The notes under the pieces are model-generated. The model did no database searches, had not been told where the DNA came from, and saw nothing but the letters and a program-made list of their open reading frames with translations. From Antedon mediterranea (taxonomy: Eukaryota; Echinodermata; Crinoidea; Comatulida; Antedonidae): a stretch of 64,000 nucleotides of DNA. Positions 8,219 to 61,098 of this stretch are shown piece by piece. Position 1 is the first letter of the stretch. Every line of letters starts with the position of its first letter. The position numbers and the translations under genes were made by a program. The stretch spans positions 32,753,304 through 32,817,303 of the forward strand of contig NC_092671.1 of assembly GCF_964355755.1 (NCBI RefSeq), written 5' to 3'.

Positions 8219-10466
8219 TAATCTTCATTCGAGAGGAGTTCTTCTAGGATGTGACCATCCTCATCTAACTCTTCCTCGTCCAGCTCCTCAGATGTTTTCT
8301 CAATCAGATCAATGAGAGAAGGAGGAAGGACAGCACTTTGTGACCAAATTGGCTCTAATATGTTGTCAGTTTTCTGCCAGCCTTGTTGATGGGTGTGAAA
8401 TAATCAATTGTTGATTTTGTTGAGGGTTTGACTACTGTAGTTGCTGAAATGAAGCCACCAAACCCTGGAACAAGTTGATTTCCTTCTTGTTGACATCCAA
8501 TAAACCGTGCATGAAACCAGATAAGATACTCTTGTATATACTTGCAGTACACTGTATCGTTAGTTGCAGGTGGTGTAAAAACAGTTCCATCTTGAAATCT
8601 GGGTCCAACTCGACCATACAACTGCACAGGAACAAGGGTTTCTGGTGTTTCAATCATCCGGGACCTTATATTGCTTCGCTCATAAAGAGGTAACAAGCGG
8701 TCGTGGTCAACGGTATTAAATCCAGGCTTTACCTCTTGTATCATGATCCCGCCTGTGGTATTTACCATATTTGAGCCATGGATGTTTGTGGTAACTTTGT
8801 TTAGATTATCCCACTCAAGATGGAACACATCATTACCATCACCAGTAATGATTTGTGGAGTAAGGAATGTAGAAATTTCATCTACAGCTTTCACCAGTGC
8901 TGTTTCAAGTTCTAAGCTGAAGTCGTATGTCTCACAATGACCCAACCTATTCAGAATAGTTGTCAATTGCTTACTGCGATAGAGATGTCTAATTGTGGTA
9001 CTAAGGAGTATGTGCTTCGGCAACTTCCACTCGCTTTTGTCACAGCACGGCATATATTCTAAAATAAATCAATATATATATATATATATGACAATATATG
9101 CATCAATGTATTGTGTAATTTTAAATATGCGTCGTGTACAAATAACATACCAATAAACTGTTGCAGAAGGCTTTCAAAGAACATTCAGTTATGATAACTG
9201 TTACGTACTGTTACGTACTGTAAATTTGTAAGAATAAATTTAAATGTGTCATACCTGGCCAATAGAAAGCACAATACGTCTTGTCTTTTCATTCATGTTC
9301 TGCATGTTTTCATCATTAGATATAAGTATACTCAAAAAGCTCAAAAGATTTGGTGGAAGAAGTTTATCGGCTGCGTTGATTTCTAAATCACTTGCTGTAG
9401 GTGGCCACGGAAATGGCTTCATTTCTTTAAAACCTTGTTGTACAGAATTTCGAAGTTGCATTGCCATATTTTCATACTGGTTTTTCAATCCCAGTATATA
9501 TGCATAACTCACTGCATCAGCGACAGACAGATTTTTGCTAAAAACAACATTATAAGTAATACACCCCTTATCACCTGGGTTAACATTTGTAATAGTAATG
9601 CATTTGCTTATATGGTGGTTCTCTAACTGTGCCTTGAGTTTCTCACTTCTATACTCTGGATTAGGGAATTCCATTTTCTCTAACTCTTTGACATAGATAT
9701 CACGAAGTGATGACAATAGCATGACTTCTTGCTGCCCAATTACAATTACATGTTCTTGAATAAAATAAATTACACACGTCAATGCATTTAAGCGGGCCTC
9801 ACCTTTAAGACCATTATCATTATCCACATTCAACGACTGGATGTACTTTACATACTTTAGGTTGAATTTTTTTCTGCATGATTGGTGGAAATTGGCGTCG
9901 CGGGAAAACAGGTCTTCACCTTGCACTAAGCAATGTAGGTCATGCATTCCTAGTGCAAGTGACCGAGGCTCAATTTGTTTCCATGTGGGATCTTTAAATA
10001 CACAATTTTCAGTTTTATAAACAGGAAACTTGATGCACCTTTCAGTCTTTCTAGACACTTTCAATTCAAGTTTATTACAAAAAATACACTCTGGTGGAAA
10101 CAAACTGTTCGTAGTTGATGGTTGTTTACGATTTGAGCGGGAATTTTGAGCTGCACTAGATGTTGAACTACATTTTAAACGATGTTGGTTAATAATAAAG
10201 CGTTGGTAGCAAGCACGATGATAACCAATTACATTCAAATCAGTATTTTCGAGATTCTCTGGAATACCTTTACAGACATCCTCCATACGATAAGGAGAAT
10301 CATAAGGTTCGGTAAGTCGTTTGTCACTAATACTATGTAGCTGATTCAACTTCTCTGAGGCTGATCCCTTGATATCAGTGAGCGGAATAAATTGAAGATG
10401 CTCAATACCTTTGACATGTAAAATGCAACTTACCGATGAACATTTTCTATTTCATCAATATCAATC
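8219..10466 (-). pseudogene. Transposon-encoded protein, frameshifted (zinc-binding, unnamed invertebrate repeat family)
   Basis: Two exons can be read. Exon A (about 10466-9249) starts within KCSSVSCILHVKG and contains YHRACYQRF, a CIFC zinc knuckle, LFSRDANFHQSCRKKF and a long helical middle; it ends SIGQ at a GT donor (9248). Exon B starts at 9062 (acceptor TTTTAG) with NICRAVTK. One base later the frame must shift to give EWKLPKHILLSTTIRHLYRS, HCETYDFSLELETAL and a DNLNKVTTNIHG stretch, and it shifts again near 8385, after which GWQKTDNILEPIW and an acidic tail (EELDEEELDEDG) end at 8219. I know this layout (CxxC, YHxxC, PKHI, GHCxxY, WDN) from uncharacterised multicopy proteins in many invertebrates, but give no enzymatic function. 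Its place between long TIRs argues it is element-encoded. The usual C-terminal half seems deleted. Confidence 0.6.
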
Positions 10467-21710: not shown

Positions 21711-22604
21711 ATGCCCGGACGAATAAGAAATATATTTAAAAGGAGTGGTAAAAAATGGTAAATATACTTTTTTACACATATAAAGGTATGAGAAAAACAT
21801 CTAAAATGAAATTAAAATAAAAAAAACAATCATTAATCTCGTATAGGAATTTCTAAATATTGGATGTTATTTACCAACAGGCACTCTCGTTTTAATACTT
21901 TCTTTAACAAGTATTTTCGATGTTGCTTCTGTTCCATAAAAAATGATGACGATACAACTACAGGCTACCAGGTTTGGGTCAAGATACCATCGCATATCCG
22001 TGTTATCATTTTAAAACTGATATACGGCATTGCTTTTGACCCAATCCAACGTGACTTCATTGGTTACAACCCAGACCCAACATTGGACATCTCAATCCGG
22101 CAATACGCCAGAGCTCTGGTCATCTTGGACAACAGCTGTCTGAACATCTCCAATGCAAATTCAGAAGCCAATCACATTGCCTCACTAAACATCATTAGAA
22201 AGTGTTTCAACATGGACGCAATCAACTCGGTTCCATCACTCATTCAACCACTTGTTGTTGAAGGTCAGTTTGCCAACTCTGTGGTAAAGAATGTTGGTTC
22301 AGTCCATGCAAGAGCTGTCATGAAAACACATTGTGCGATTGAAACCCATCTGTAGATATAGCAGAGGGAGTTAGAATAATGCAAGCGCATGGAATCATCC
22401 ATAATGATCTAGCTACTAGGAACGTTCTTGTCCACCATAATGGACATTCATAGTCTTGGAATAATGTTCGTCGTCATGGGTGCTATTTTAGATATGAAAC
22501 CTCTTCTTGAAATAGGCAAGCAGTGCACTTATCGTGATCCAGACCGCCGCCCTGCCATCAATGGTATAGTTGACATGTTGACAAACAAGATCAACACTTT
22601 GTAA
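21711..22604 (+). pseudogene. Kinase gene copy 1, internally deleted
   Basis: Exon 1 21711-21757 (MPGRIRNIFKRSGKKW) and exon 2 from 21881 read through WVKIPSHIRVIILKLIYGIA, DISIRQYARALVILDNS and VPSLIQPLVVEGQFANSVV to ETHL and a stop at 22353-22355. At that point the sequence jumps: CCCATCTG is followed by TAGATATAGCAGAGGGAGTT, which in copy 2 lies about 1.64 kb further on in the kinase domain. A second gap removes the activation-loop region (after CACCATAATGG, continuing at ACATTCATAGTCTTGG). The final part (KQCTYRDPDRRP...) is still readable in another frame to TAA at 22604. The glycine loop, VAVK lysine and DFG are gone, so no kinase can be made. A truncated protein of about 170 residues remains possible. 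Confidence 0.85.
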
Positions 22605-41346: not shown

Positions 41347-44300
41347 ATGGATTTTCTATTTGGTAAACGCAAAACGCCAGAGCAGATGTTGCGTCAAAAT
41401 CAACGGGCGTTAAACAAGGCTATGAGAGATCTAGATAAAGAGAGATCAAAGATGGAACAACAAGAAAAGAAAGTTATTGCAGATATAAAGAAGATGGCAA
41501 AACAAGGAGAAATGGTTTGTGACTGTCGTGCCTTATTATACCATACTTGATGTAGGCCTACCGTACAGTATTACGGTATTATACTGTAGTATTAGTGAAC
41601 AGTATACAGTATATGCATATGAATAAATAATAATATTATTCTATTCTATACAAGTTTTATATGGCGCCCTACAAAGAACAGAGCGCCTAACAATACTTTG
41701 TAACTAATTAAAAGTTGACGTTTAAATAGAGGTGCCGAATTCGCTCCTCTCAACTCGACAGGTAGCGAGTTCCAAATCCGCAGAGTGGTGACAGAAAAGG
41801 CATTGTCAGTGTCACCAGCTTTCCGATTAGATTAGATCCAAAGGGAGCTTTTGATTTACAATTAAGACGACCTATCTACAGCCGATTGTCTGACAGAAAT
41901 TCATTTATGGTTACATTTTTGTGAATAACTTTCATGTACTAAATGTTTTTTTCATGGAAAAATACATCTTTTAAGCTCTGTCTACTCTTCTATCAAACTA
42001 GTTGGACAACAAAATTGTGTGATGTTCCCAAATATGGTAGTGATATGGATATGCCCAAATATGGTAGTGATATGACATCATTATGTCTATATATGGGCAC
42101 ATCATATTTTTTTGTCACATAAGTGTAGACAGAGCTGCTTAAGATTGAAAAAATATGAAATTTGATTATATCTAAACTATTTGTACAGGATGCAGTGAAA
42201 ATAATGGCAAAGGATTTGGTGCGGACGCGAAGGTATGTTAAAAAATTCATTATGATGAGAGCAAATATCCAAGCAGTGGCACTTAAAGTACAAACACTTC
42301 GGTCAACTAATGCCATGGCTCAAGCCATGAAAGGTGTCACCAAGGCAATGGGAAGCATGAATAAACAAGTAAGCTCATATTTAGTTGTATTTTATAATGT
42401 TATGAGTTTTTATGCAATTAAAACCTGCAAATCGGTGTTGTAAAGAGTTCCCTAACTGTGTTAACTGGAATCTACCATACTCTTGCAAATGAGCAACATC
42501 ATTGCTGCCTCATCTCCCACCCTCCTGTTAAAATAAGTTCTACCTGCTAGAGTTCTAATGAACAACTTTTAATTTAGATTGCTGCATATCAACACTTTCT
42601 TGCACAACAGAACGTGTAATTATATTATAAAAATTAAAAAATCATGTAAACTGTAAAATCAGTATAATATTAATTCATAATCATTTTGTATTGTATTCCT
42701 TTGGGAAGTATCTGATGATTCCATCGTCAGAACATCAGAAGTAAAAACCTTATTATTTTCTTAGATGAAGTTACCACAAGTACAAAAAATAATGATGGAA
42801 TTTGAAAAGCAGTCAGAAATAATGGATATGAAGGAAGAAATGATGAGTGATGCAGTTGATGATGCCATGGGAGAGGATGAGGATGAGGAAGAAAGGTTAG
42901 TATCAAGCCAAATGAAAACATGGAATACCTTTCTTATTTTATCTGAAATGACCATGTCTACTAGTACTGTAATTAACTATGCCATGTTTTGTAGCTATTT
43001 CATATCAATGTATCAATCCATGTTTAAAAATCCTTCTGTATGTATTCCATATTTTAGGCTCTTCCCTATGTATTCCATATCTTAAGCTTTTCCCTATGTA
43101 TTCCATATTTTAAGCTCTTCCCATGTATTCCATATTTTAAGCACTTTCCTATGTATTCCATATTTTAAGCTCTTCTCTATGTATTCCATATTTTAAGCTT
43201 CTCTATTCCATATTTTAAGCTCTTTCCTATGTATTTCCATATTTTAAGCTCTTCTCTATGTATTCCATATTTTAAGCTCTTCCCTGTGTATTTCCATATT
43301 TTAAGCTCTTCCCATGTATTCCATATTTTAAGCTCTTCCCTGTGTATTTCCATATTTTAAGCTCTTCCCATGTATTCCATATTTTAAGCTATTCCCTATG
43401 TATTCCATGTTTTAAGCTATTCCCTATGTATTCCATATTTTAAGATCTTCCCTATGTATTCCATATTTTAAGCTCTTCCCTATGTATTCCATATTTTAAG
43501 CTCTTCCCTGTGTATTCCATATTTTAAGCTCTTCCCTATGTATTCCATATTTTAAGCTCTTCCCTGTGTATTCCATATTTTATGCTCTTTCCTATGTATT
43601 CCATATTTTAAGCTCTTCCCTGTGTATTCCATATTTTAAGCTCTTTCCTATGTATTTCCATATGTTAAGCTCTTCCCTATGTATTTCCATATTTTAAGCT
43701 CTTTCCTATGTATTTCCATATTTTAAGCTCTTCCCAATGTCTTCCATATTTTAAGCTCTTCTCTATGTATTCCATATTTTAAGCTCTTCCCTGTGTATTC
43801 CATATTTTAAGCTCTTTCCTATGTATTTCCATATGTTAAGCTCTTCCCTATGTATTTCCATATTTTAAGCTCTTCCCTATGTATTCCATATTTTAAGCTT
43901 CTCTATTCCATATTTTAAGCTCTTCCCTATGTATTCCATATTTTAAGCTCTTCCCATGTATTCCATATTTTAAGCTCTTCCCTATGTATTTCCATATGTT
44001 AAGCTCTTCCCTATGTATTCCATATGTCAAGCTCTTCTCTATGTATTCCATATTTTAAGCTTCTCTATTCCATATTTTAAGCTTCTCTATTCCATATCTT
44101 AAGGTCTTCCCTATGTATTCTATATTTTAAGCTCTTCCCAATGTATTCCATATTTTAAGCTCTTCCCTGTGTATTCCATATTTTAAGCTCTTCCCAATGT
44201 ATTCCATATTTTAAGCTCTTCTCTATGTATTCCATATTTTAAGCTCTTCCCAATGTATTCCATATTTTAAGCTCTTCTCTATGTATTCCATATTTTAAGA

Positions 44301-46459
44301 TCTTCCCAATGTATTCCATATTTTAAGCTCTTCCCAATGTATTCCATATTTTAAGCTCTTCCCTATGTATTCCATATTTTAAGCTCTTCCCTATGTATTC
44401 CATATTTTAAGCTCTTCTCTATGTATTCCATATTTTAAGCTCTTCTCTATGTATTCCATATTTTATGCTCATTCCTATGTATTCCATATTTTAAGCTCTT
44501 CCCTATGTATTTCCATATTTTAAACTCTTTCCTATGTATTTCCATATTTTAAGCTCTTCCCTATGTATTCCATATTTTAAGCTCTTTCCTAAGTTTTCTA
44601 TTTTTTAAACTCTTCCATGTGTTTTCTCCATTTTTAAACTTCTTTTTTTATTATTTTCAGTGAGGCAATAGTATCTCAGGTTCTGGATGAGCTTGGTTTA
44701 TCACTAGGAGATGAATTAGCAGGTAAGGAAATTGCATCAATTGATTACTAAAATAAGATCTTTTACAACAGTTTGGAATAAAAAGTGTGCGTCATATAGT
44801 TGGTTGGTTCACTAACTGGTGGGTAGGTCTCACTTGGGTAAAAGCTGTTGAGTTCTTCACACTTCATCATCTTGTGTTATTGGGCAAGAATCTTCACTCT
44901 CATCTTTTAGTGGGAAGTGAAGCCATGTGTGTTTTAATGACAGCATTCTTGCTGGTGTCAGTTATTTCCTTATTGATTGCATTATAGCATCAATGAAGGT
45001 AATGTCACATACTAAATCAACTGATTTATCTTCAGATGGAATGATGGTAAACAGAATATGTGGTTTCACACTCTCTTAGGGTATGTTCAGACTCACGGAG
45101 TTACGGTGGAGTTATCTACGCAAGGCGTACGGTAATCCGTGGCGTTAAAAGTCAAGGTGTTCAGACACAACGATTAGCATTCCAAACGTCTTGCGTTTAA
45201 AGCGGAAGTTCCGTCATACCGAAACGGCCGATGGGATACATACACACAATAACAACAACAGAGCTGAGAGTGACACGCGCGAAAGTTTACAACACTAGCT
45301 AGGCCTAGCAATATAATACAATGTTACCTTCAAATGTAATGGTTTTTTTGCCGATTTTTTTTGCAAATCCTTACAGAAGATAGTCATTTCGAACATAATT
45401 ATTACACGGACAATGACTTTGCCATTATTTGTATGATTTTAATTAATTTTGTGAAATCATGTCGCCGACGCCAACTTCGTCAGGAAGAATTTTGCAGTTT
45501 AGATGCAATTTCTTTAAAAACAGCCATCTTGTTGCCGGCGCTAGCTTTCCAATTTCTAATTTTTATCTTGTCTATAAATTCAGGGCTGCCCCATAATGAA
45601 ATCAAATCAGCCACTTCTGTACTTTTCCATGTAACACGTTTCATTTTAATTCGAATGTTGCTGTTGATCTACTAGCTCGAGGAACAGGCTATATTGTTTT
45701 GCTATTAAAAAAAACCTCGCGAATAGACTGCTGCTAATTGCGGTCGTGTCTTTTCATTGGCTGACGTTGACCGGAGGTTGAAATCACTGATGCATCAATG
45801 GATTAGCCTTATGAAATCTACCCTCTCCCGCTGGAGTTATTAACGCCACTGGCGCGGAGTAACAGCTCCCTAACGCTAATCCGCGGCATGGTTCAGACAC
45901 AAAAATATGTACGCCGCGTACATAACTCCACCGTAACTCCGTGAGTCTGAACATACCCTTAAGCTCTGTCTACACTATCAAAATGTGATGTGCCCAAATA
46001 TGGTAGGGATATGCCCAAATATGGTAGTGATATGACATCATCATGTCCATATATGGGCACATCACATTTTTTTGTCACATAAAGTTTATAGTGTAGACAG
46101 AACATAAGCTTAGAATTCTGTATATTGAAAACCATCACATGACCAAATAAAAAAATATACTGTACATTTATGCCACCTTTTAAACAGAAACTACAAAAGT
46201 GGTCAGTTGTTTCTAGACTCTAAGGCTGGTCCTTCTAAAGAGACTTTTAATATAAAAAAAAATAAAAGAAAACTCAACGAAAGGGACCACCGAAAGAAAA
46301 AAATCACCTATATAAAATGTTATTTCATTTGTATCAGGTTTACCCGGCACAGGATCAGCATTGAATGCATCAACTAAAGATAAGGTACCAGTAGCTGAGG
46401 GTGACATGGATGCTGATGCTGACTTACAAGCTAGGTTGGATAATTTAAGAAGAGATTAA
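41347..46459 (+). CDS. CHMP2A: ESCRT-III subunit CHMP2A/Vps2 (complete, five exons)
   Basis: Exons 41347-41514, 42189-42368, 42765-42895, 44661-44722, 46338-46459; 663 nt, 220 aa plus stop, phases consistent. CHMP2A polymerises with CHMP3/CHMP4 on membrane necks in endosomal sorting, cytokinesis, virus budding and membrane repair, and recruits VPS4. The N-terminus MDFLFGKRKTPEQMLRQNQR is the basic, amphipathic CHMP2 start. Helices follow (KKMAKQGEM, DAVKIMAKDLVRTRRYVKKF, MAQAMKGVTKAMGSMNKQ, MMEFEKQSEIMDMKEEMM). An acidic linker (AMGEDEDEEE) leads to SQVLDELGLSLGDELA, and the end LQARLDNLRRD is the MIM1 motif bound by the VPS4 MIT domain. Length equals the usual 220-222. Introns hold MITEs, a minisatellite and a Harbinger-like element. 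CHMP2B is excluded by the FGKRKTPEQMLR start and LDNLRRD end. Confidence 0.96.
41971..42142. mobile_element. MITE family A, copy 4
   Basis: TTAAGCTCTGTCTACTCTTC to GTAGACAGAGCTGCTTAAG in CHMP2A intron 1, ending 46 bp before exon 2. Carries the AAATATGGTAGTGATATG motif twice. Confidence 0.9.
43047..44610 (+). repeat. 28-bp minisatellite in CHMP2A intron 3 (~55 copies)
   Basis: The unit is CCATATTTTAAGCTCTTCCC plus TATGTATT, with frequent variants (TTCCTATGTATTT, TTCTCTATG, TTCCCAATG, and short TTCTCTATT units). It fills nearly the whole intron up to the polypyrimidine tract before exon 4. Variant units recur in runs, suggesting repeated local duplications. Confidence 0.95.
45079..45958 (-). 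mobile_element. PIF/Harbinger-like element, decayed
   Basis: TIRs of about 45 bp begin GGGTATGTTCAGACTCACGG and are bordered by TTA on both sides (45076-45078 and 45959-45961), the TWA target type of PIF/Harbinger. The interior, read on the minus strand, gives KRVTWKSTEVADFI, then after a frameshift LWGSPEFIDKIKIRNW, NKMAVFKEIASKLQN: a remnant of the Myb/SANT-like (MADF-type) DNA-binding ORF of such elements. No transposase is present. It lies in CHMP2A intron 4. Confidence 0.75.
45961..46112. mobile_element. MITE family A, copy 5
   Basis: AAGCTCTGTCTACACTATCA starts inside the TTA target duplication of the Harbinger-like element. Ends near TATAGTGTAGACAGAACATAAG. In CHMP2A intron 4. Confidence 0.9.
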
Positions 46460-49955: not shown

Positions 49956-52900
49956 ATGGCCGCTGCTGGAGTTCCGACGACGGAATTAAATATCTATCCA
50001 GTTAAGGAGGATAAGTTTCCTTTTAAAGACTATGTTCCAGAAGAATTGGGATGTTTTTCAATCGATAAGAATTGCAAACCGCATATGGATAACCGAATGT
50101 TGAAGTACCTGTATACACCTCCTGGAAGTCAGGGTCACGTATATAATTTGAGAGATGGCTACGATACATTTCATAACCATGACGATCGTTTGACCAAAAA
50201 AATCAATAATATCATAAAATGGATTGCGGAAAATAAGAATCTTTTTGAGTTAGAGATGAAGAAAGGTGACGATGATAGCAGACTAATAAAAAGGTAAGAA
50301 GAATTACGACGAGTTGGTTATATGCGCTCTGAAAACGACACAAGTATAAGGACGCTTTCCACTTATATAGTTTTGGAACAAGAGAACCAGTGCCAGATGT
50401 ATCTGGTTATTGAATTAACCGGAGCACTGAATTCTTTCCACGACAGAAAAAAGAATCTAAACAATATAGGCTAGGTCCACTTTTTATCATATTTTTATTC
50501 TGGCATCAAATTTTACGTTAAATATATCGGAAATTGACAAGATTATGGGCCCGTAATCTGATTTTACTGTATAAAACAATTGTGTTAAAGTATAAATATA
50601 TAAATCAATCAATTTCAAGTTTATTTCGGAAATATTTCATCCATATCAAAAACGAACAAACAGAAAAAGAAGAAATAAAATTTTAATTTTTTTTTGTTAT
50701 TACTAAAACTGTAAAACAAAGACCTCATTGTTAATTCATTCTAAAGCAGCTCTGTCTGCACTATCACACTACTGTGACAAAAAGTGTGATGTGCACAAAT
50801 ATCATTTTTTGTAACATAAAGTTCGATAGTGTAGACAGAGCTTTAGCTGAGCAAGCTTTATTATTTAGTTTAGTTTAGTTATAATGGGAAAGTTTAGGCG
50901 ATGTGCCTTTTTAAACCCCATATCAACTACATTGTGTCGATGCGATTCTTGAAGGTATTAGCGGTCTCAGAATTGACAACGTCGGCTGGTAAACTGTTCC
51001 AATGGTTTATTACTCGTTGCGAGAAGGTATGTCTTCTACAGTTCAATCCTTTATGGAAAGTAGGCTTGAAAAATCTCAGGTGATGCCCTCGAGTAATTCT
51101 GCTAATGTTACTTCTCATTTGGAAAAAGTCATCCTTGGCTACACCCTCGAAACCTTTAACAATTTTATATGCTTCAATCAGGTCACCTCGAATTCTTCTG
51201 TCATACAAGGTTGTTAGGCCAAGAAACTTTAAACGATCTTCATATGAATATGAACGGATACATGGAACTAATTTAGTCGCACGACGTTGTACTCTTTCAA
51301 TTACATTTATGTCCTTTTGAAGATACGGATTCCATACTTGAACACAAAATTCGAGATGTGGGCGTACATAATGCTTGTAGATGACGTTAAAACAATCCTT
51401 ATCCATATATACGAAAGTCCTTCTGATGCTTCTTAAACAGTTCATGGCCCGCTGAGATACTTTGGCGCAGTGTTGGCTTGGTTTACAGTCATTAGTAATT
51501 AGTACTCCTAGGTCCTTTATTTTCTCAACTGTTTCCAGTTCAACTTCATCTATTTGGTATTTAAAATGAACATTTGAATGCCCAAAGTGCATCACCATGC
51601 ATTTGCTTTTATTAAAAGCCAACATCCATTCTTTACTCCACTGCAGTGCATTGTTTAAAGATTCTTGTAATAATTGCCCATCATTTCTGTTGTTAACTAC
51701 TGAGTAGATCTTTGTATCATCAGCAAATAGCTTTATATGACTAGACACATACTTTGGTAGGTCATTTATATATAATGCAAACAATGTAGGGCCCAACACC
51801 GAGCCTTGTGGAACTCCACTAATTACATCAGCCCAACTGGAAGAAGCATGACGCACTTTGACTCTTTGTTGTCTGTTATCAAGAAAATCTTTAATCCATA
51901 ATAACAATTGACCTTTGATTCCATAGCTCTCCAATTTCATGAGTAATCTCCTATGAGGAACGCTGTCGAAAGCTTTACTATAGTCCAAAAATATGACATC
52001 AACATTATTGTTGTCATCCAAAGCCTTAGTAACATCTTCCATAAATTCTAAAAGATTTGTCAGACATGATTTCTTCTCAACAAAACCATGTTGCTCTGTT
52101 GTTAGTATTGCATTGTTCTTAACATGTCGTAGTATGTTGTTACGAATAATATGTTCAAAGATCTTGCAAATAATACATGTCAGGCTTATCGGTCGATAAT
52201 TGGACGCTTGTGATTTGCTGCCTTTCTTAAAGATCGGAGAGACATCAGCTCGTTTCCATATTTTTGGTAGCTTACCTTCCTCTGTAGACTTCTTGAATAA
52301 AAAATACAAGGGTTCTGATAACTCCTCAGCACACTTGTTAAGTAGACATGGATTGATGTTGTCTGGACCAGGACTTTTATCGATTTTCAAACCTCGGAGT
52401 TGCTTAAAAACATCTTCTTGGGAGAACTCAATATTTTCAACTGATTTGTCACAAGTATCATAATTAAAATTGGTTATGTCTTCGTCAGGATCTTCTTTGG
52501 TGAAAAATGTTTGGAAGCATTTGTTGAGTTCCTCACTAATTTCGTAGTCAGTTTCCAAGGTTAGCCCATCATTATTTACTAATTTTGTTATTCCAGTCTT
52601 TACTTTCTGTTTCGATCTAACATACTTATGAAAGTTCTTTGGTTTGTTTTTGAATTCCATCAAGATTTTTTTTTCGAAGGTAGCTTGAGCGTTCCTTACA
52701 GCTTGCCTAGTACGATTGTTCTGTTTCTTGTAAGCCATATGATCTCTCTCGTTTTGTGTTTCTCTGAAGCTTTTGTACAGTTGATATTTCTTTTTTACTG
52801 ATTTTTTAACAGCTGATGTCATCCAGGGTTTATTCTGACCTTTACTACGAGTACTCCCAAATGTAGGAATATATAACTCAGTCATATTACACAATACTTC

Positions 52901-55900
52901 ATTAATACTGTTGTACATTTCATCGGTAGTTTGATTATCAAATTCATCGGACCAATTGATATTACTCAGTTCACGCTTTATGCTTATATAATCGCCTTTG
53001 TTGTAGTTGTGAAATGACTTGGTTTCCTTACTGGGAATATCAAGTTTATAGACGTACTGCCAAAACAAACAATCGTGGTCACTTTTCCCTAAAGGGGGTA
53101 AATGTAGTAGGTTAGATACCTTAAAATCATCATCAGTAATAATAAGGTCCAATTGGGATGATCTTTGTCCCTCTCTGTGTCGCGTATTACTCTTGACATG
53201 TTGCACCAAGTATAAATCGTTGATTATTTCAAAAAAAGTGTTTGATGGATGTGTAACGCTAGCATTAACCAACATATCCTTCCAATTAATTTCTTTAAGG
53301 TTAAAATCTCCAATTATCAACACGTGGTCAGATTGTACTGATTCAATAAAGCGTAGTTGGTAAAACAATTGCTCATTTTCATCAGGTGTGTTGTACATAC
53401 TCCTATAGCAAAGACCTATCAGAACTTTATTATGTTTATCAACTTCCACAGTACACCATAGCGATTCAGGATTTAATTGACACAATTCATTACAAATGGT
53501 AACATGTAGTTTCTCATTAACATATAATAACAATCCACCATGCGCTTTATTCGCTCTTTCCTTGCGAAACAAATTGTAACCTTTCATTGCTATTTCAGCG
53601 TCTAGCACATTATCGCTCAACCATGTTTCAGTAATACCAATTATGTGCGGTTTCCTTTCTTCTATCAAAACAAAAAATTCGCTTCGTTTGTTCAAAAACC
53701 CTTCTGCGTTGGTATAAAAACAACTTAAATATTCTTCTTGGGGTGCAAGTTCAAAATCGTGTTCAACAAAAGTATTGTCTCTGAACGAAATATCTTCTTC
53801 TAAGTCAAAATCTTCTTGTAAAAATAAAGGTGCTGTGCGATTAGGTTCATTTATATTCTTAGTGGTCACGAAAGGATTGCACTGATACAATCTTCCTCTT
53901 CCTTATAATAACGTTCTCACCTTTATCTCTACGTAGCCTTAACTGAGCTCTCAATTTACTACTTTCTTCTCTTTGAGATGGTGTGAGATCCGGTGTGAGG
54001 AATATTCTATCGTAGCCTTTATTTACCGCTTGCTTTAAGCCCTTAGCTTTTTTCAGAATTTCTCTCTTGACTTCAACTCCATCTACAGTTATTCGAAGCA
54101 ATCGTGGTTTCTCATCATTTCGCTTAGTTCCAAGTCTAATCGGTTTTGATATTGTCGTATTTACATTCAGAAAATTAAGTACTTCAGTAGCCTTTACTCT
54201 ATCTTGTTCCTTCCTCGCATCTACGTCATCAGTTCCCACTTCCGGCACATTATGCAATATGATATTATTTTCTCTTCTTTGTCTATCAAATCTCTCATCT
54301 ATGTAGACTTTCACTTTTTCTTCCACTATCTTCTCAATATTCTCATCTTTTTTTTCTATAGATTCAACAAGTTTCTGAATTGTCATAGTGATATTATCTA
54401 ACCGTTCAGTTAGTTTCACAAAGTTCTCTTCACCACTTGGCCTATTTTCGCCATCTTTAACCAACTTAGAAACTTGGCCTGAGCAGCTATCACAAAACCA
54501 CATTAGATTCTGTCTACCCTTTTCAAGGGCCTTATATTCAGAATTATTCATACCTGAACAGGTTTGATGTGTCCATTCTAAACATTTCTGGCATTCAATT
54601 GACTTTTCTCCACCAATAATGTCGTCCTTACAACAATTACACTTCACAGTTTCATTGTCGCTGTTCCCGGTAGCTAGGCCTACGTTATCACTCACATGTC
54701 TGCTGTCGCGACGACTCTTGTCGCGAGTCCCACCACTCGGCGCTGATTTTACGCTACCGCGACTTGGGCCTGAATTTTTATTACTCATAATCTTAAAACA
54801 GGTTTCGAGTTCGTATATCTAATACGTGTAGTAGTATATAGGGTTTATTTAACACACACACCGCACAAAACAAACTCAAATTTAATAGCAGTCTGTCCGC
54901 CTAGCCAGAACGGAAGGTGCCTGTCACGATAAATATGGTCCGGGGCCAAAATCGGTCCGGCCGGACCAGTTTTGGCTCTAAAATTGTGGCCAAAAGCAGT
55001 CCGCCACTGCCAAAATCGGTCCGGGCTTTTCTTCTGTCGATTTTAATTGAATTACTAGGCCTATGATGCTGTTTTAAATTGTTTATGGCTATAAAAATAT
55101 CCCATGATATATATTAGTAAGTTATCTTGTCGGATAAATACTATAAATAAATGTATTTTATCTAAAAACATGACTTAGGTGTTCACTCATATTTTACGGC
55201 CTGCCACACACTCACATGAACGGGTATGAGACGCTGATATTGCCAGCTAGATTTGATTTATGATTGAGGCCTTTTTCCTTCCTCAGCCTAATCAATATTG
55301 GATAATTTTTTTCTAATAATTGTATTGAATTGATATATTGATTGATTAACCATGAATAATTAATAAATTAAATTGTTTTTAACATCATGGGGAAACGAAG
55401 ATGTTAAAAAAGAACAAAATGGATTAAAAACAGGCAGAGATACATATTGTATACAAAAAGCCTAACAATTAGTACTTATTATTGATGAGTTACTACTAAT
55501 AATGATAATAAAAAAAACAGGCTTAATTTATAATATTAAAATAACAAATAAAACCCCATAGTTTTCAATATAATGACTAATCATGGCCTTTTTTTTTAAT
55601 GATATATACATTATGACTCATATTGCGCACCATATATTTGTAAGACCGGACCATATTTGGCGGCCAAAAACAGTCCTACTGCCCGGACCGATTTTATCCA
55701 GGCCGGACCAGTTTTGGCGGCCAAAATTGGTCCGGCCGGACAGGTTTTGGCAGCCATAAATGGTCCCCCGGACTGATTTTGGCAGCCAAAACTGGTCCGC
55801 CGGACCGATTTTGGCCCGGACTAATTTTGGCGTGACATGCCTATTATGACAAATAAGACGTCATAGCAACATTCCATTTCAGATGAACCACAATCATGTG

Positions 55901-56562
55901 ACATGAATTACATTTTCAACTAAAGTGCTTGAATTGTAGTAAAAATGGGCGTGTTTTACGTGTGACGGATGCATCATATACCATAACCTAAGTCGTAATC
56001 TAACCTTCCACGATGCAGGCGCCACACAATGATCTGTATTATTATAGAATTATGCCTATGATACTGAACACATTATAGATACAGAATCGAGTGACATTGT
56101 GTGTGTGCGTGCAATTAATGCAAACATTTTTAGCACGCGACTCTACAGCTTACTATGTCGGTCGGTCGGTTGGTCGGTCGGTTGGTAAACACAATCTCAA
56201 ATTTGACCACGCGACAGCAGCCATGTACATGGCCTTGTTTTAAGATCGCAAACGTCGAAATACTCTCATTTCAGAATTTTAATTAAAAGTAGGCCTAGGC
56301 CTATATAGATTAACTTTATTCGTATACTTTTTTACTAGTTTAAATACAGACTTTGTATGTCGCCGAGGACATTTGGGGACAATAATGTACACACCATACA
56401 AACGAGAAGGATGGAAAATGGCTGTGATGTTGTTCGGTGGCACGTATTACATAAGTGAAGTGATAACAGAAGAGAAAAAAGCTTATGAGGAAAACAGGAC
56501 GGACATTGAAAGAAGAATGGAGTATGTGGGATATAAGTTTGAGCAATGTATTACTAGTCGGG
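49956..56562 (+). CDS. DXO: DXO/Rai1-family decapping enzyme, first two exons (partial)
   Basis: Exon 1 49956-50293 (112 codons plus 2 nt) and exon 2 56339-56562 join in phase through an AG|T serine codon. DXO/Dom3Z removes incompletely capped and NAD-capped 5' ends and degrades the RNA. Exon 1 matches the family N-terminal lobe: PEELGCFSIDKN, YLYTPPGSQ, VYNLRDGYDTFHNHDD. Exon 2 gives CRRGHLGTIMYTPYKREGWK, FGGTYYISEV and ERRMEYVGYKFEQ, equivalent to the 'WRGHLTKLLTTPYE...LYLSEVET...MGYKFEQY' block. Exon 2 ends at a GTATGT donor. The catalytic GEVDC, E..LK and following motifs are not found in the remaining 7.4 kb, so the rest lies beyond the window or is lost. Intron 1 (6 kb) holds an antisense LINE. 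Confidence 0.88.
50294..50744. other. DXO intron 1, proximal part
   Basis: No element clearly defined; a segment at 50608-50660 (CAAGTTTATTTCGGAAATAT) resembles retroelement tail sequence. Confidence 0.3.
50745..50845. mobile_element. MITE family A, copy 6 (short)
   Basis: AGCAGCTCTGTCTGCACTATC to CGATAGTGTAGACAGAGCTT in 101 bp; most of the interior is deleted (only AAAAAGTGTGATGTGC and ATTTTTTGTAACATAAAG remain). It abuts the LINE 3' tail. Confidence 0.85.
50927..53890 (-). CDS. LINE ORF2: endonuclease-reverse transcriptase (987 aa)
   Basis: Cleaves target DNA and reverse-transcribes the element RNA. The N-terminal exonuclease-endonuclease-phosphatase domain (residues about 55-285) shows YTNAEGF, the catalytic Glu in GITETW (E88), GDFN (194-197), LDLIIT and SDHD (270-273). 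The reverse transcriptase (about 480-800) has KIDKSPGPDNI, NYRPISLTCIICKIFE, VIFLDYSKAFDSVPH, GVPQGSVLGPTLFALYINDL and the LFADDTKIY active site near residue 720. The C-terminus has the RRTFVYMDKDCFNVIYK and RPHLEFCVQVWNPYLQKDI region typical of CR1/L2-clade proteins. No stop or frameshift interrupts it, so the copy is young or recently active. Translation may use reinitiation after the overlapping ORF1 stop. Confidence 0.93.
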   Translation of the reverse strand: MYQCNPFVTTKNINEPNRTAPLFLQEDFDLEEDISFRDNTFVEHDFELAPQEEYLSCFYTNAEGFLNKRSEFFVLIEERKPHIIGITETWLSDNVLDAEIAMKGYNLFRKERANKAHGGLLLYVNEKLHVTICNELCQLNPESLWCTVEVDKHNKVLIGLCYRSMYNTPDENEQLFYQLRFIESVQSDHVLIIGDFNLKEINWKDMLVNASVTHPSNTFFEIINDLYLVQHVKSNTRHREGQRSSQLDLIITDDDFKVSNLLHLPPLGKSDHDCLFWQYVYKLDIPSKETKSFHNYNKGDYISIKRELSNINWSDEFDNQTTDEMYNSINEVLCNMTELYIPTFGSTRSKGQNKPWMTSAVKKSVKKKYQLYKSFRETQNERDHMAYKKQNNRTRQAVRNAQATFEKKILMEFKNKPKNFHKYVRSKQKVKTGITKLVNNDGLTLETDYEISEELNKCFQTFFTKEDPDEDITNFNYDTCDKSVENIEFSQEDVFKQLRGLKIDKSPGPDNINPCLLNKCAEELSEPLYFLFKKSTEEGKLPKIWKRADVSPIFKKGSKSQASNYRPISLTCIICKIFEHIIRNNILRHVKNNAILTTEQHGFVEKKSCLTNLLEFMEDVTKALDDNNNVDVIFLDYSKAFDSVPHRRLLMKLESYGIKGQLLLWIKDFLDNRQQRVKVRHASSSWADVISGVPQGSVLGPTLFALYINDLPKYVSSHIKLFADDTKIYSVVNNRNDGQLLQESLNNALQWSKEWMLAFNKSKCMVMHFGHSNVHFKYQIDEVELETVEKIKDLGVLITNDCKPSQHCAKVSQRAMNCLRSIRRTFVYMDKDCFNVIYKHYVRPHLEFCVQVWNPYLQKDINVIERVQRRATKLVPCIRSYSYEDRLKFLGLTTLYDRRIRGDLIEAYKIVKGFEGVAKDDFFQMRSNISRITRGHHLRFFKPTFHKGLNCRRHTFSQRVINHWNSLPADVVNSETANTFKNRIDTM
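53859..54788 (-). CDS. LINE ORF1: PHD-finger RNA-binding-type protein (309 aa)
   Basis: Starts MSNKNSGPSRGSVKS with a basic, disordered tail. Residues about 48-102 form a C4HC3 PHD-type zinc finger (CNCCKDDI, ECQKCLEWTHQTC, MWFCDSC). A coiled coil follows (KLTERLDNITMTIQKLVESI..., about 125-170), then RRENNIILHNVPE and KPIRLGTKRNDEKPRLLRIT, the L1-ORF1-like RRM/CTD pattern. PHD-coiled coil-RRM is a known ORF1 type in CR1-related LINEs. It probably packages element RNA. It ends 32 nt inside ORF2. Confidence 0.88.
   Translation of the reverse strand: MSNKNSGPSRGSVKSAPSGGTRDKSRRDSRHVSDNVGLATGNSDNETVKCNCCKDDIIGGEKSIECQKCLEWTHQTCSGMNNSEYKALEKGRQNLMWFCDSCSGQVSKLVKDGENRPSGEENFVKLTERLDNITMTIQKLVESIEKKDENIEKIVEEKVKVYIDERFDRQRRENNIILHNVPEVGTDDVDARKEQDRVKATEVLNFLNVNTTISKPIRLGTKRNDEKPRLLRITVDGVEVKREILKKAKGLKQAVNKGYDRIFLTPDLTPSQREESSKLRAQLRLRRDKGENVIIRKRKIVSVQSFRDH
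54919..55841. mobile_element. Foldback element with GGTCCGGCCGGACCAGTTTTGGC units
   Basis: Outer ends GCCTGTCACG and CGTGACATGC are inverted. The left 110 bp and right 190 bp are filled with variants of GGTCCGGCCGGACCAGTTTT and GGCxGCCAAAA in both orientations, separated by about 620 bp of plain AT-rich DNA. No ORF. It sits between the LINE and DXO exon 2. Confidence 0.75.
56150..56255 (+). repeat. (GGTC)n-headed repeat, copy 1
   Basis: TATGTCGGTCGGTCGGTTGG, ACCACGCGACAGCAGCCATG and TACATGGCCTTGTTTT recur at 61528-61850, where the copy is split by a later insertion. Confidence 0.7.
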
Positions 56563-56587
56563 GTATGTAAAACCGGTTTTCCACTTG

Positions 56588-57759: not shown

Positions 57760-58080
57760 TCATTGCGTGCGCGCGCCAAGTGCGTGTTCTATCTACGCTA
57801 GCCTTAGCAACTTTTTGTAGCGACGGCCATGGAGATCGATTCATAGGCGCGGCGCGGCGCGCCTAGGCTACATGAACTTCAAAGGTAAGCATCGTTATAA
57901 CAAAATTATCCGTAATTTTACGTGTTTTTTATTGGTTATTTGGCAAATTTCTTACAAAATATGTGGTGATAGTGATTAATAAAGGTTCAATATTATATAC
58001 ACCTACTCAAATATTTTACACATCTAAGCCTACTAAAGATTACCGAAATTTTATAATTTATTTTATATTTAATAAAAATA
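57760..58080 (+). promoter_or_regulatory. Kinase copy 2: 5' flank and probable noncoding first exon
   Basis: GGTTCATTGCGTGCGCGCGCC, GCGTGTTCTATCT, TAGCGACGGCCATGG and CTTCAAAGGTAAGCATCG match copy 1 (18925-19070). A GCGCGGCGCGGCGCGCC insertion is specific to copy 2. The intron start is at GTAAGC about 57883. Confidence 0.55.
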
Positions 58081-58356: not shown

Positions 58357-61098
58357 ATGCCCGGACGAATAAGGAATTTATTTAAAAGGAGTGGTAAAAA
58401 ATGGTAATTTTACTAGTTATTTCACACATAAAAGTATGAAAGAAGTATCTAAAATGAAAATAAAAGAAACAATCATTAATCTGGTATAGGCCTAGACATT
58501 TTTAAATACTGGACGTTATTTACCAACAGGCACTCTCGTTTCAATACTTTCTTTAACAAGTATTTCCGATGTTGCTTCTGTTCCATAAAACCTGATAATG
58601 ATAACAATACAACTACAGGCTACCAGGTTTGGGTCAAGATACCATCGCATATCCGTGTTATCATTTTAAAACTGATATACGGCATTGCTTTTGACCCAAT
58701 CCAACGTGACTTCATTGGTTACAATCCAGACCCAACGTTGGACATCTCAATCAGGCAATACGCCAGAGCTCTGGTCATCTTGGACAACAGCTGTCTGAAC
58801 GATAACATCTCCAATGCCATGGGTATCACCAATTCAGAACCCGATCACATTGCCGCACTAAACATCATCAGAAAGTGTTTCAACATGGACGCAATCAACT
58901 CGGTTCCATCACTCATTCAACCACTTGTTGTTGTTAAAGGTCAGTTTGCCAACTCTGTGGTAAAGAATGTTGGTTCAGTCCATGCAAGAGTCATGTCATG
59001 AAAACACATTGTGCGATTGAAACCCACCAGATGTCCAGCGTGTCTATCAACAGCATCATTGCAAAATGGCTTCGAAGAAGACCTGAACGTGTCATCAGTA
59101 CCGAACCATTCCACTTGTGTTTAAATACCATGTCATACAAGGTACCCACCTGCATGGCATTATAATATTAACACATTATAAAACATGTATTTGATACGTT
59201 TACCGATGCATACTAATAAATATTTCTTTTGAAAAATAAAAGCTTCGTTTTATTTGAATCTCTTTATTACAGCACATGAATACGACACCGTTGGGAAATA
59301 CGGATAGTTCCCTAAAAACTAGACCAAAGCATGAACAAGTTAACAAGGTAATGTTCAAAACCACGTCTAATGAAACTGCTCTTTAGAATATCTGCACTGA
59401 TAACAGCAATGGATTTCTCTTTCAAACAATCAATCGATTAATGAACTAAATAGCTTACTAATTGTCTTGCTATAAACATTTGTGTTCTTTCTTTTTATAG
59501 GCACTTCAATTATGTTATCGATCGTTGTTCCTGCCATCCAGACCCGATACCACCCCTCCTTTATACACATCGGCCATCTACTACAACAACAAACTGGTTA
59601 TAAGCTTCTTGTTCAATCACTTGCAGTCTTCAGTGCATATCATCTTTGAAAGTGAACAAGCCCGATCAATCTTTGTAATGCTTGCCAGAATGTGGATGCT
59701 ATTTGCTGACAGCAATGGTGTTGGGAACCAAAGTGTGACAACATTAAATGAAACACCAGCATCTGATGCATACTGGTTGCTGTACCATATTTACCAAGCT
59801 CTGTGTGGTTGGATGCATCTCGTTATTCCCAACCTGAGCCGGCAAACTGCTGTAATGTCTCTCCTAGGTGAAGATAGTGACACTTCACGAGCTTTGTGCC
59901 TATCATATTCCGTCAGAAGTCATCATTACACCACCAGCTTTCAAAATGATGTATATGCCCCAGTTGTTGATACGGATGATTATGACACCACTTCGTCGAC
60001 TGCTTCATTCAACGGAGAATGGAAAAGTAATTTGTGCATTTATTACCACGACAAAGAAACATCCAAGTCTTCGTTATGCGTAGAGTGGCAGAATATATCG
60101 GTATCGTACCAAGGCCAGGGAATATTAACATCAGCATATAACTTCAGTCTGCCTGACCATCTTTCGATGTTAGATTCAATACTACCAACCGATCTTCCAA
60201 TATTATCAGTTGAAGATGTATACCCATTACCGGTAAACATTTTACATTTTCTTTCTTTTTTTGATATTTATTTATAAATCTAAATCTAAACCAAAAGTAA
60301 CCTCATTGTTTTTATTTCTCAGGTGACGCTTGGAAAAGGTTCGTACGGCGAAGTATCTTTATATCGAATGAATTCTTTAGATGGCCCTCTTGTTGCTGTG
60401 AAATCTTGCATGGCCCCAACGGACAAATCGAAGCAACCGATGTATGAGTTTTTAGTGACACTCGAAGCCGTGGACAAATGATGCTATCAAGGGACAGCAG
60501 ATTATTCCCATTCATTTATGGCATTTGCAAGAGAGGTTTATTTGAAAGAAGAAAGAAGATCGTCATCGAGTATGTGGGAGATCCAGCACGTCTCCAGTCT
60601 GTGACTCTATCTAAAGCCATCAAATTGCAAGACCCACAACTGAGTCTCATAGAAGGTCTCCACATAGCGGTAGATATAGCAGAGGGAGTTGGAATAATGC
60701 AAGCACACGGAATCATCCACAATGATCTAGCTACTAGGAACGTTCTTGTCCACCATAATGGTGACAGATGGGGTGCCAAAATTATTGACTTTGGCGCTGT
60801 CTGTAATGTGAACGCTTCATTCGACATGTTTCAGCTGAACAAAACCCCAGCTGCAAATAGAGAAAGTGCAACGTCTTCCCACAGAGAGCATGCACCGGAG
60901 CTTCATTTCCTGAATTCACCCCCGTCATTTAAATCAGACATTTATAGTCTTGGAATAATGTTCGTCGTCATGGGTACTATTTTATATATGAAACCTCTTC
61001 TTGAAATAGGCAAGCAGTGCACTGATCGTGATCCAGACCGCCGCCCTGCCATTAATGATATTGTTAGCATGTTGAAAAACAATATCAACACTTTGTAA
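58357..61098 (+). pseudogene. Kinase gene copy 2: unknown N-terminal region plus protein kinase domain, two frameshifts
   Basis: Exons 58357-58403, 58530-59141, 59273-59347, 59501-60232, 60323-61098; splice sites and phases are sound. The first about 430 residues (WVKIPSHIRVIILKLIYGIA, YQVW, WLLYHIYQALCGWMHLVI, SLCVEWQNISVSYQ) match nothing I know. The kinase domain has the glycine loop GKGSYGEV, VAVK, HGIIHNDLATRN (HND in place of HRD; Asp and Asn kept), IDFG, HAPEL (APE), SDIYSLG and DPDRRP, closest in style to tyrosine-kinase-like enzymes; the segment after SDIYSLG is unusually short. Two indels break it: two extra bases at about 58991-58994 relative to copy 1 (frame ends MS, stop 58999-59001), and one missing base at about 60476-60480, where VDK meets TGA and the next frame resumes MMLSRDSRLFPFIYG. 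These could be true lesions or assembly errors. Confidence 0.85.

Follow-up and report, generated by a model that had tools for sequence, protein, structure and literature searches.

A decayed gene copy in Antedon mediterranea belongs to an expanded, uncharacterised family of kinases whose core is unusual

The window analysed here is a 64,000-nucleotide stretch of the 354 Mb genome of Antedon mediterranea (G000:C2:32753304-32817303). At positions 58357-61098 of its forward strand, five coding exons with GT-AG borders encode an N-terminal region of unrecognised type followed by a TK/TKL-like kinase domain. Comparison with other loci of the same genome indicates that this is a broken member of a real family of kinases that is uncharacterised, expanded and unusual in its core. 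Our preferred reading, to which we assign a probability of roughly 0.7, is that the window holds a decayed duplicate from this family, whose intact members would be catalytically competent non-RD kinases that lack the alpha-G segment and recruit partners through their N-terminus.

The window copy can be followed exon by exon along the forward strand. Coding exon 1 (58357-58403) begins MPGRIRNLFKRSGKK, a start common to the members of two subfamilies, A and B; exon 2 (58530-59141) encodes a KYFRCCF segment and then a conserved N-terminal region without a Pfam or PDB match; exon 3 (59273-59347) is placed by the window sequence and its alignment to paralogues; and exon 4 (59501-60232) encodes a second undescribed region, a linker and a pre-kinase LDSILPTDLPILSVEDVYPLP motif. 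Exon 5 (60323-61098) encodes a kinase domain without an alpha-G segment, assigned by its spacing and by its match to PF07714 (1.5e-18 in a Pfam search), in which GKGSYGEV, VAVK, HNDLATRN, DFG, APE, SDIYSLG and DPDRRP follow in that order; the HND codons lie at 60718-60726 (pattern match at G000:C2:32814021). A probable 5' noncoding exon (57768-57884) precedes these on the same strand, based on 67% identity with a paralogue on contig C4 across 57768-58026, on a donor AAAG/GTAAGC, and on an acceptor before the ATG read from the sequence. Both the five-exon structure and the GKGSYGEV, VAVK, HND, DFG and APE motifs had been proposed in an earlier note on this DNA, and both were recovered, the exons with further support from paralogue alignment and from the splice borders of the C4 gene.

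Aligning the window copy with the copies on C8, C4 and C10 located two frameshifts: two extra bases (+2) in exon 2 near 58991-58994, called against three paralogues, and one missing base (-1) in the kinase exon at 60467-60468. The earlier note had read about 430 residues followed by a kinase; the exons and the kinase are there but the continuous frame is not, and because two frameshifts break it, that description is a read-through. Set against its paralogues, the window copy is a recently broken pseudogene, a decayed duplicate of a gene from an expanded family; sequencing or assembly error may lie behind its frameshifts.

Other copies are damaged as well. The second copy previously reported in the window is present on the forward strand at about 21711-22604, in truncated form: it retains exon 1, most of exon 2 and fragments of the kinase exon, but exons 3-4 are gone, as are the kinase N-lobe and a portion of the activation region. 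A third, on contig C8, is about 92% identical to the window copy, arose by a duplication that includes the flanks, and carries frameshifts and deletions of its own. In the C10 copy 70 kinase bases are deleted, and the C9 copy has two in-frame stops, one within SDIYSLG and the other close to where exon 2 ends. Within the duplication shared with C8, the window also contains an exon-like fragment (56283-56570) that matches a RAI1/DXO-type nuclease (PF08652, 9e-22). A LINE on the reverse strand (50927-54818), carrying a PHD-finger ORF1 and an endonuclease/reverse transcriptase frame that is open for 991 codons, lies some 3.5 kb upstream of the kinase gene. Elsewhere in the window are two long open frames of 237 and 400 codons without a Pfam match (8355-10451, reverse strand) and a tandem array of about 57 copies of a 28-bp unit (43039-44616).

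The possibility that an intact member exists elsewhere in the genome was borne out by a genome-wide search, which found genes on C4, C7 and C8 together with a set of Ser-rich open frames. On C4, gene L068 comprises five coding exons whose joined frame stays open over 789 residues; the end of its exon 2 may fall one codon later than modelled. The intact subfamily B genes, L071, L072 and L073 (on C8 and C7), are each built from three coding exons and encode 506, 493 and 495 residues. In subfamily C, a single open frame of about 430-510 codons runs from a short basic Cys-containing segment through a Ser-rich linker to the kinase, with at least nine such frames (L051, L052, L054, L055, L056, L057, L059, L061 and L062); L058 and L067 are also open but have diverged further. 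A retrocopy origin was considered for a C3/C6 pair of Ser-rich loci and rejected because homology of about 3.5 kb extends through both flanks. At the DNA level, the pattern HND(L/I/V)AxRN has 33 matches genome-wide and none in the reversed control; a broader HND pattern gave more control matches than real ones and serves for reading the matched letters, not for counting.

The N-terminal region had previously been argued to have probably been under constraint on the grounds that it is conserved between copies. Near copies are no evidence of this, because their introns are about as alike as their exons (91% versus 92-94% between the window and C8 copies). The conclusion itself is upheld by comparison with the C4 gene, in which exons are 60-83% identical and introns 55%, with dN/dS values of 0.25 for exon 2, 0.52 for exon 4 and 0.24 for the kinase. 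Pairwise values span 0.19-0.52 for exon 2, exon 4 and the kinase across subfamilies A and B, and 0.21-0.50 within the Ser-rich set. Because dN/dS is about 0.2-0.5, we conclude from these alignments that the N-terminal regions are under constraint.

That the family belongs to the protein kinase superfamily follows from profile scores above cut-off and from the presence of the catalytic K, E, D, N and D residues. In four long members the Pfam kinase profiles (PF07714/PF00069) score 76-83 bits against a curated cut-off of 23.1, with a match that stops at about position 193-197 of 258. Across nine diverse kinase domains, which share just 28-47% identity with the C4 domain, the G-loop glycines, VAVK, alpha-C Glu, HND, A, RN, DxG and APE are invariant; nearly all members keep the VAVK Lys, alpha-C Glu, HND Asp, RN Asn and DFG Asp, and the distance from DFG to APE is 35 residues in every member but one (37). 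All 23 collected domains read HND or YND, with no arginine before the catalytic Asp, and are thus non-RD. The 23 HND domains occupy one side of a branch with support of 100/100 against reference kinases of the same genome, in a tree with long branches and only five such references. Just before the kinase, a LxxLLP...DLxP pattern occurs in 10 of 13 members and in 1.2% of shuffles; it was written after inspecting the sequences, and the subfamily B members fit it only in part.

In the kinase fold, alpha-G lies between alpha-F and the last helices. Both landmarks, alpha-F and the RP motif, could be located in 20 family domains, and in all 20 they lie exactly 27 residues apart, as compared with 54-55 residues in four reference kinases from this genome, which confirms the shortened segment between SDIYSLG and DPDRRP described earlier. 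Alignments to KIT and to a JAK place the gap at the same position, between alpha-F and the last helices. Because 27 residues stand where other kinases have 54-55, the alpha-G segment is, as judged from sequence, missing family-wide. AlphaFold single-sequence models of the window sequence were uninformative (mean pLDDT 52 and 35), which leaves spacing and alignment as the evidence that alpha-G is absent.

More distant relatives extend this pattern. L060 and L080 also have the 27-residue spacing and L079 has 23, together with an even shorter C-lobe and no APE. The catalytic loops of L060 and L079 are of Ser/Thr type (HNDLKGDN and HNDIKAEN, respectively). In L080 (G000:C7:16513300-16514500), HNN replaces HND and the catalytic Asp is absent, which may mark a likely pseudokinase branch. 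Relatives of the HNDIKAEN type comprise L079 and loci at C4:15600974, 15622244, 15641205 and 24827989, C2:19526434 and C10:12961011, with three clustered on C4.

Neither profiles nor sequences of the exon 2 region and the exons 3-4 region matched any Pfam family above threshold or any PDB chain, in keeping with the earlier statement that the N-terminal region has no recognisable motif. It is best regarded as undescribed relative to Pfam and PDB; a new fold is an unproven reading. Because the middle regions differ among subfamilies (subfamily A has two undescribed regions and B a single one, whereas C has a Ser-rich linker), the comparison suggests that targeting or sensing diversified around an unchanging kinase core. 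The basic, Cys-rich start (MPGR...KYxxCCF) could speculatively act as a membrane tether, a role without statistical support: an amphipathic-helix test at the N-terminus was not significant (shuffle fractions 0.02-0.61).

How the family relates to described kinases depends on the feature considered. Its closest matches in the PDB are scattered across KIT, JAK, EGFR, FGFR3 and RIPK1, which places the kinase outside any standard named family with the same architecture, and the proposal of a new kinase family is supported in the sense of an uncharacterised one, new relative to Pfam and PDB. Metazoan tyrosine kinases (JAK, KIT, EGFR, FGFR) give the best sequence and profile matches and share the G-loop, VAVK, DFG and APE and, in subfamilies A-C, the DxAxRN loop; unlike them, the family has HND rather than HRD and lacks the activation-loop Trp, the alpha-G segment and any recognised accessory domain. 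Features expected of TK-group kinases include an AAR-type catalytic-loop motif and an activation-loop tryptophan (PMC8662651). The former reads A(T/A/S/L)R in nearly all members of subfamilies A-D, and KGD or KAE in sister members; the latter, expected just before APE, is absent in every aligned member. Because this Trp is absent and some relatives lack the AAR-type motif, the family would fall outside the TK group. TK as a label is unproven because the catalytic loops of sister members are of Ser/Thr type (HNDLKGDN, HNDIKAEN). The family profile also matches RIPK1, at about 6e-22, whereas the family lacks the alpha-G segment and, in four long members, any Pfam match to a death domain or RHIM (the RHIM is short and could be missed), and its sequences do not have the RIPK/IRAK architecture.

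Two further systems offer partial parallels. The PEAK pseudokinases SgK223 and SgK269 likewise combine a kinase fold with a functional segment directly before the kinase domain (PMC5660093), but SgK223 has HRD, SNF in place of DFG, and alpha-G oligomerisation, whereas the family has an intact DFG and no alpha-G segment. The WNG kinases of Toxoplasma (PMC6442604) provide a precedent for kinases without a canonical element; they lack the Gly loop, whereas the family has a Gly loop and lacks alpha-G. Searches of viral and prokaryote collections returned pattern matches, none of them a relative, and a literature search found no published description of such an HND-motif or crinoid kinase family.

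We weighed three other explanations. The family could be an ordinary diverged tyrosine/TKL subfamily whose orthologues in other animals already carry a generic annotation, as might be expected from its profile matches to JAK, EGFR, FGFR3 and RIPK1 and its tyrosine-kinase-like DxAxRN loop; we find this rather doubtful, given the absence of the activation-loop Trp, the sister members with Ser/Thr-type loops, the shortened segment fixed at 27 residues across the family and N-terminal regions without any match. Alternatively, its members could be pseudokinase scaffolds that keep the fold for binding and allostery and not for phosphotransfer. The replacement of HRD by HND and the loss of the alpha-G segment are unusual, and one relative, L080, has HNN and no catalytic Asp; yet Lys, alpha-C Glu, catalytic Asp, Asn and the DFG Asp are invariant in nine domains despite 28-47% identity to C4, and we judge a scaffold role unlikely.

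It is very improbable that the entire set is a decaying, non-functional duplicated repeat. Damage affects the window copy, its truncated counterpart and the copies on C8, C9 and C10, and copies are scattered over many contigs, but there are at least 13 long open members, dN/dS is 0.2-0.5 and splice borders are conserved.

Should intact members be catalytically competent non-RD kinases, they would be expected to act independently of activation-loop phosphorylation sensed through the HRD arginine. In the literature, non-RD kinases are associated with innate immunity and are considered able to dispense with activation-loop phosphorylation; the plant non-RD kinase studied in the same work nevertheless needs it for signalling (PMC8463890). 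By analogy with that association, the family could possibly have an immune role. Because alpha-G is a common docking surface, serving substrates and regulators and mediating kinase interactions (PMC5660093), the pre-kinase motif and the N-terminal regions have probably taken over partner recruitment. A more ambitious reading, in which these are undescribed, lineage-expanded active kinases that lost alpha-G once in an ancestor, replaced its docking function with N-termini of new fold, and act as non-RD kinases possibly in immune signalling, is tentative: it is possible, with the odds against it.

Activity in the intact members would show that a eukaryotic protein-kinase fold remains functional without the alpha-G docking surface, and the family would then offer dozens of natural variants for asking how substrates get chosen. 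A fixed kinase core joined to several front regions, some without a recognised domain, would likewise be a testable case of signalling diversification.
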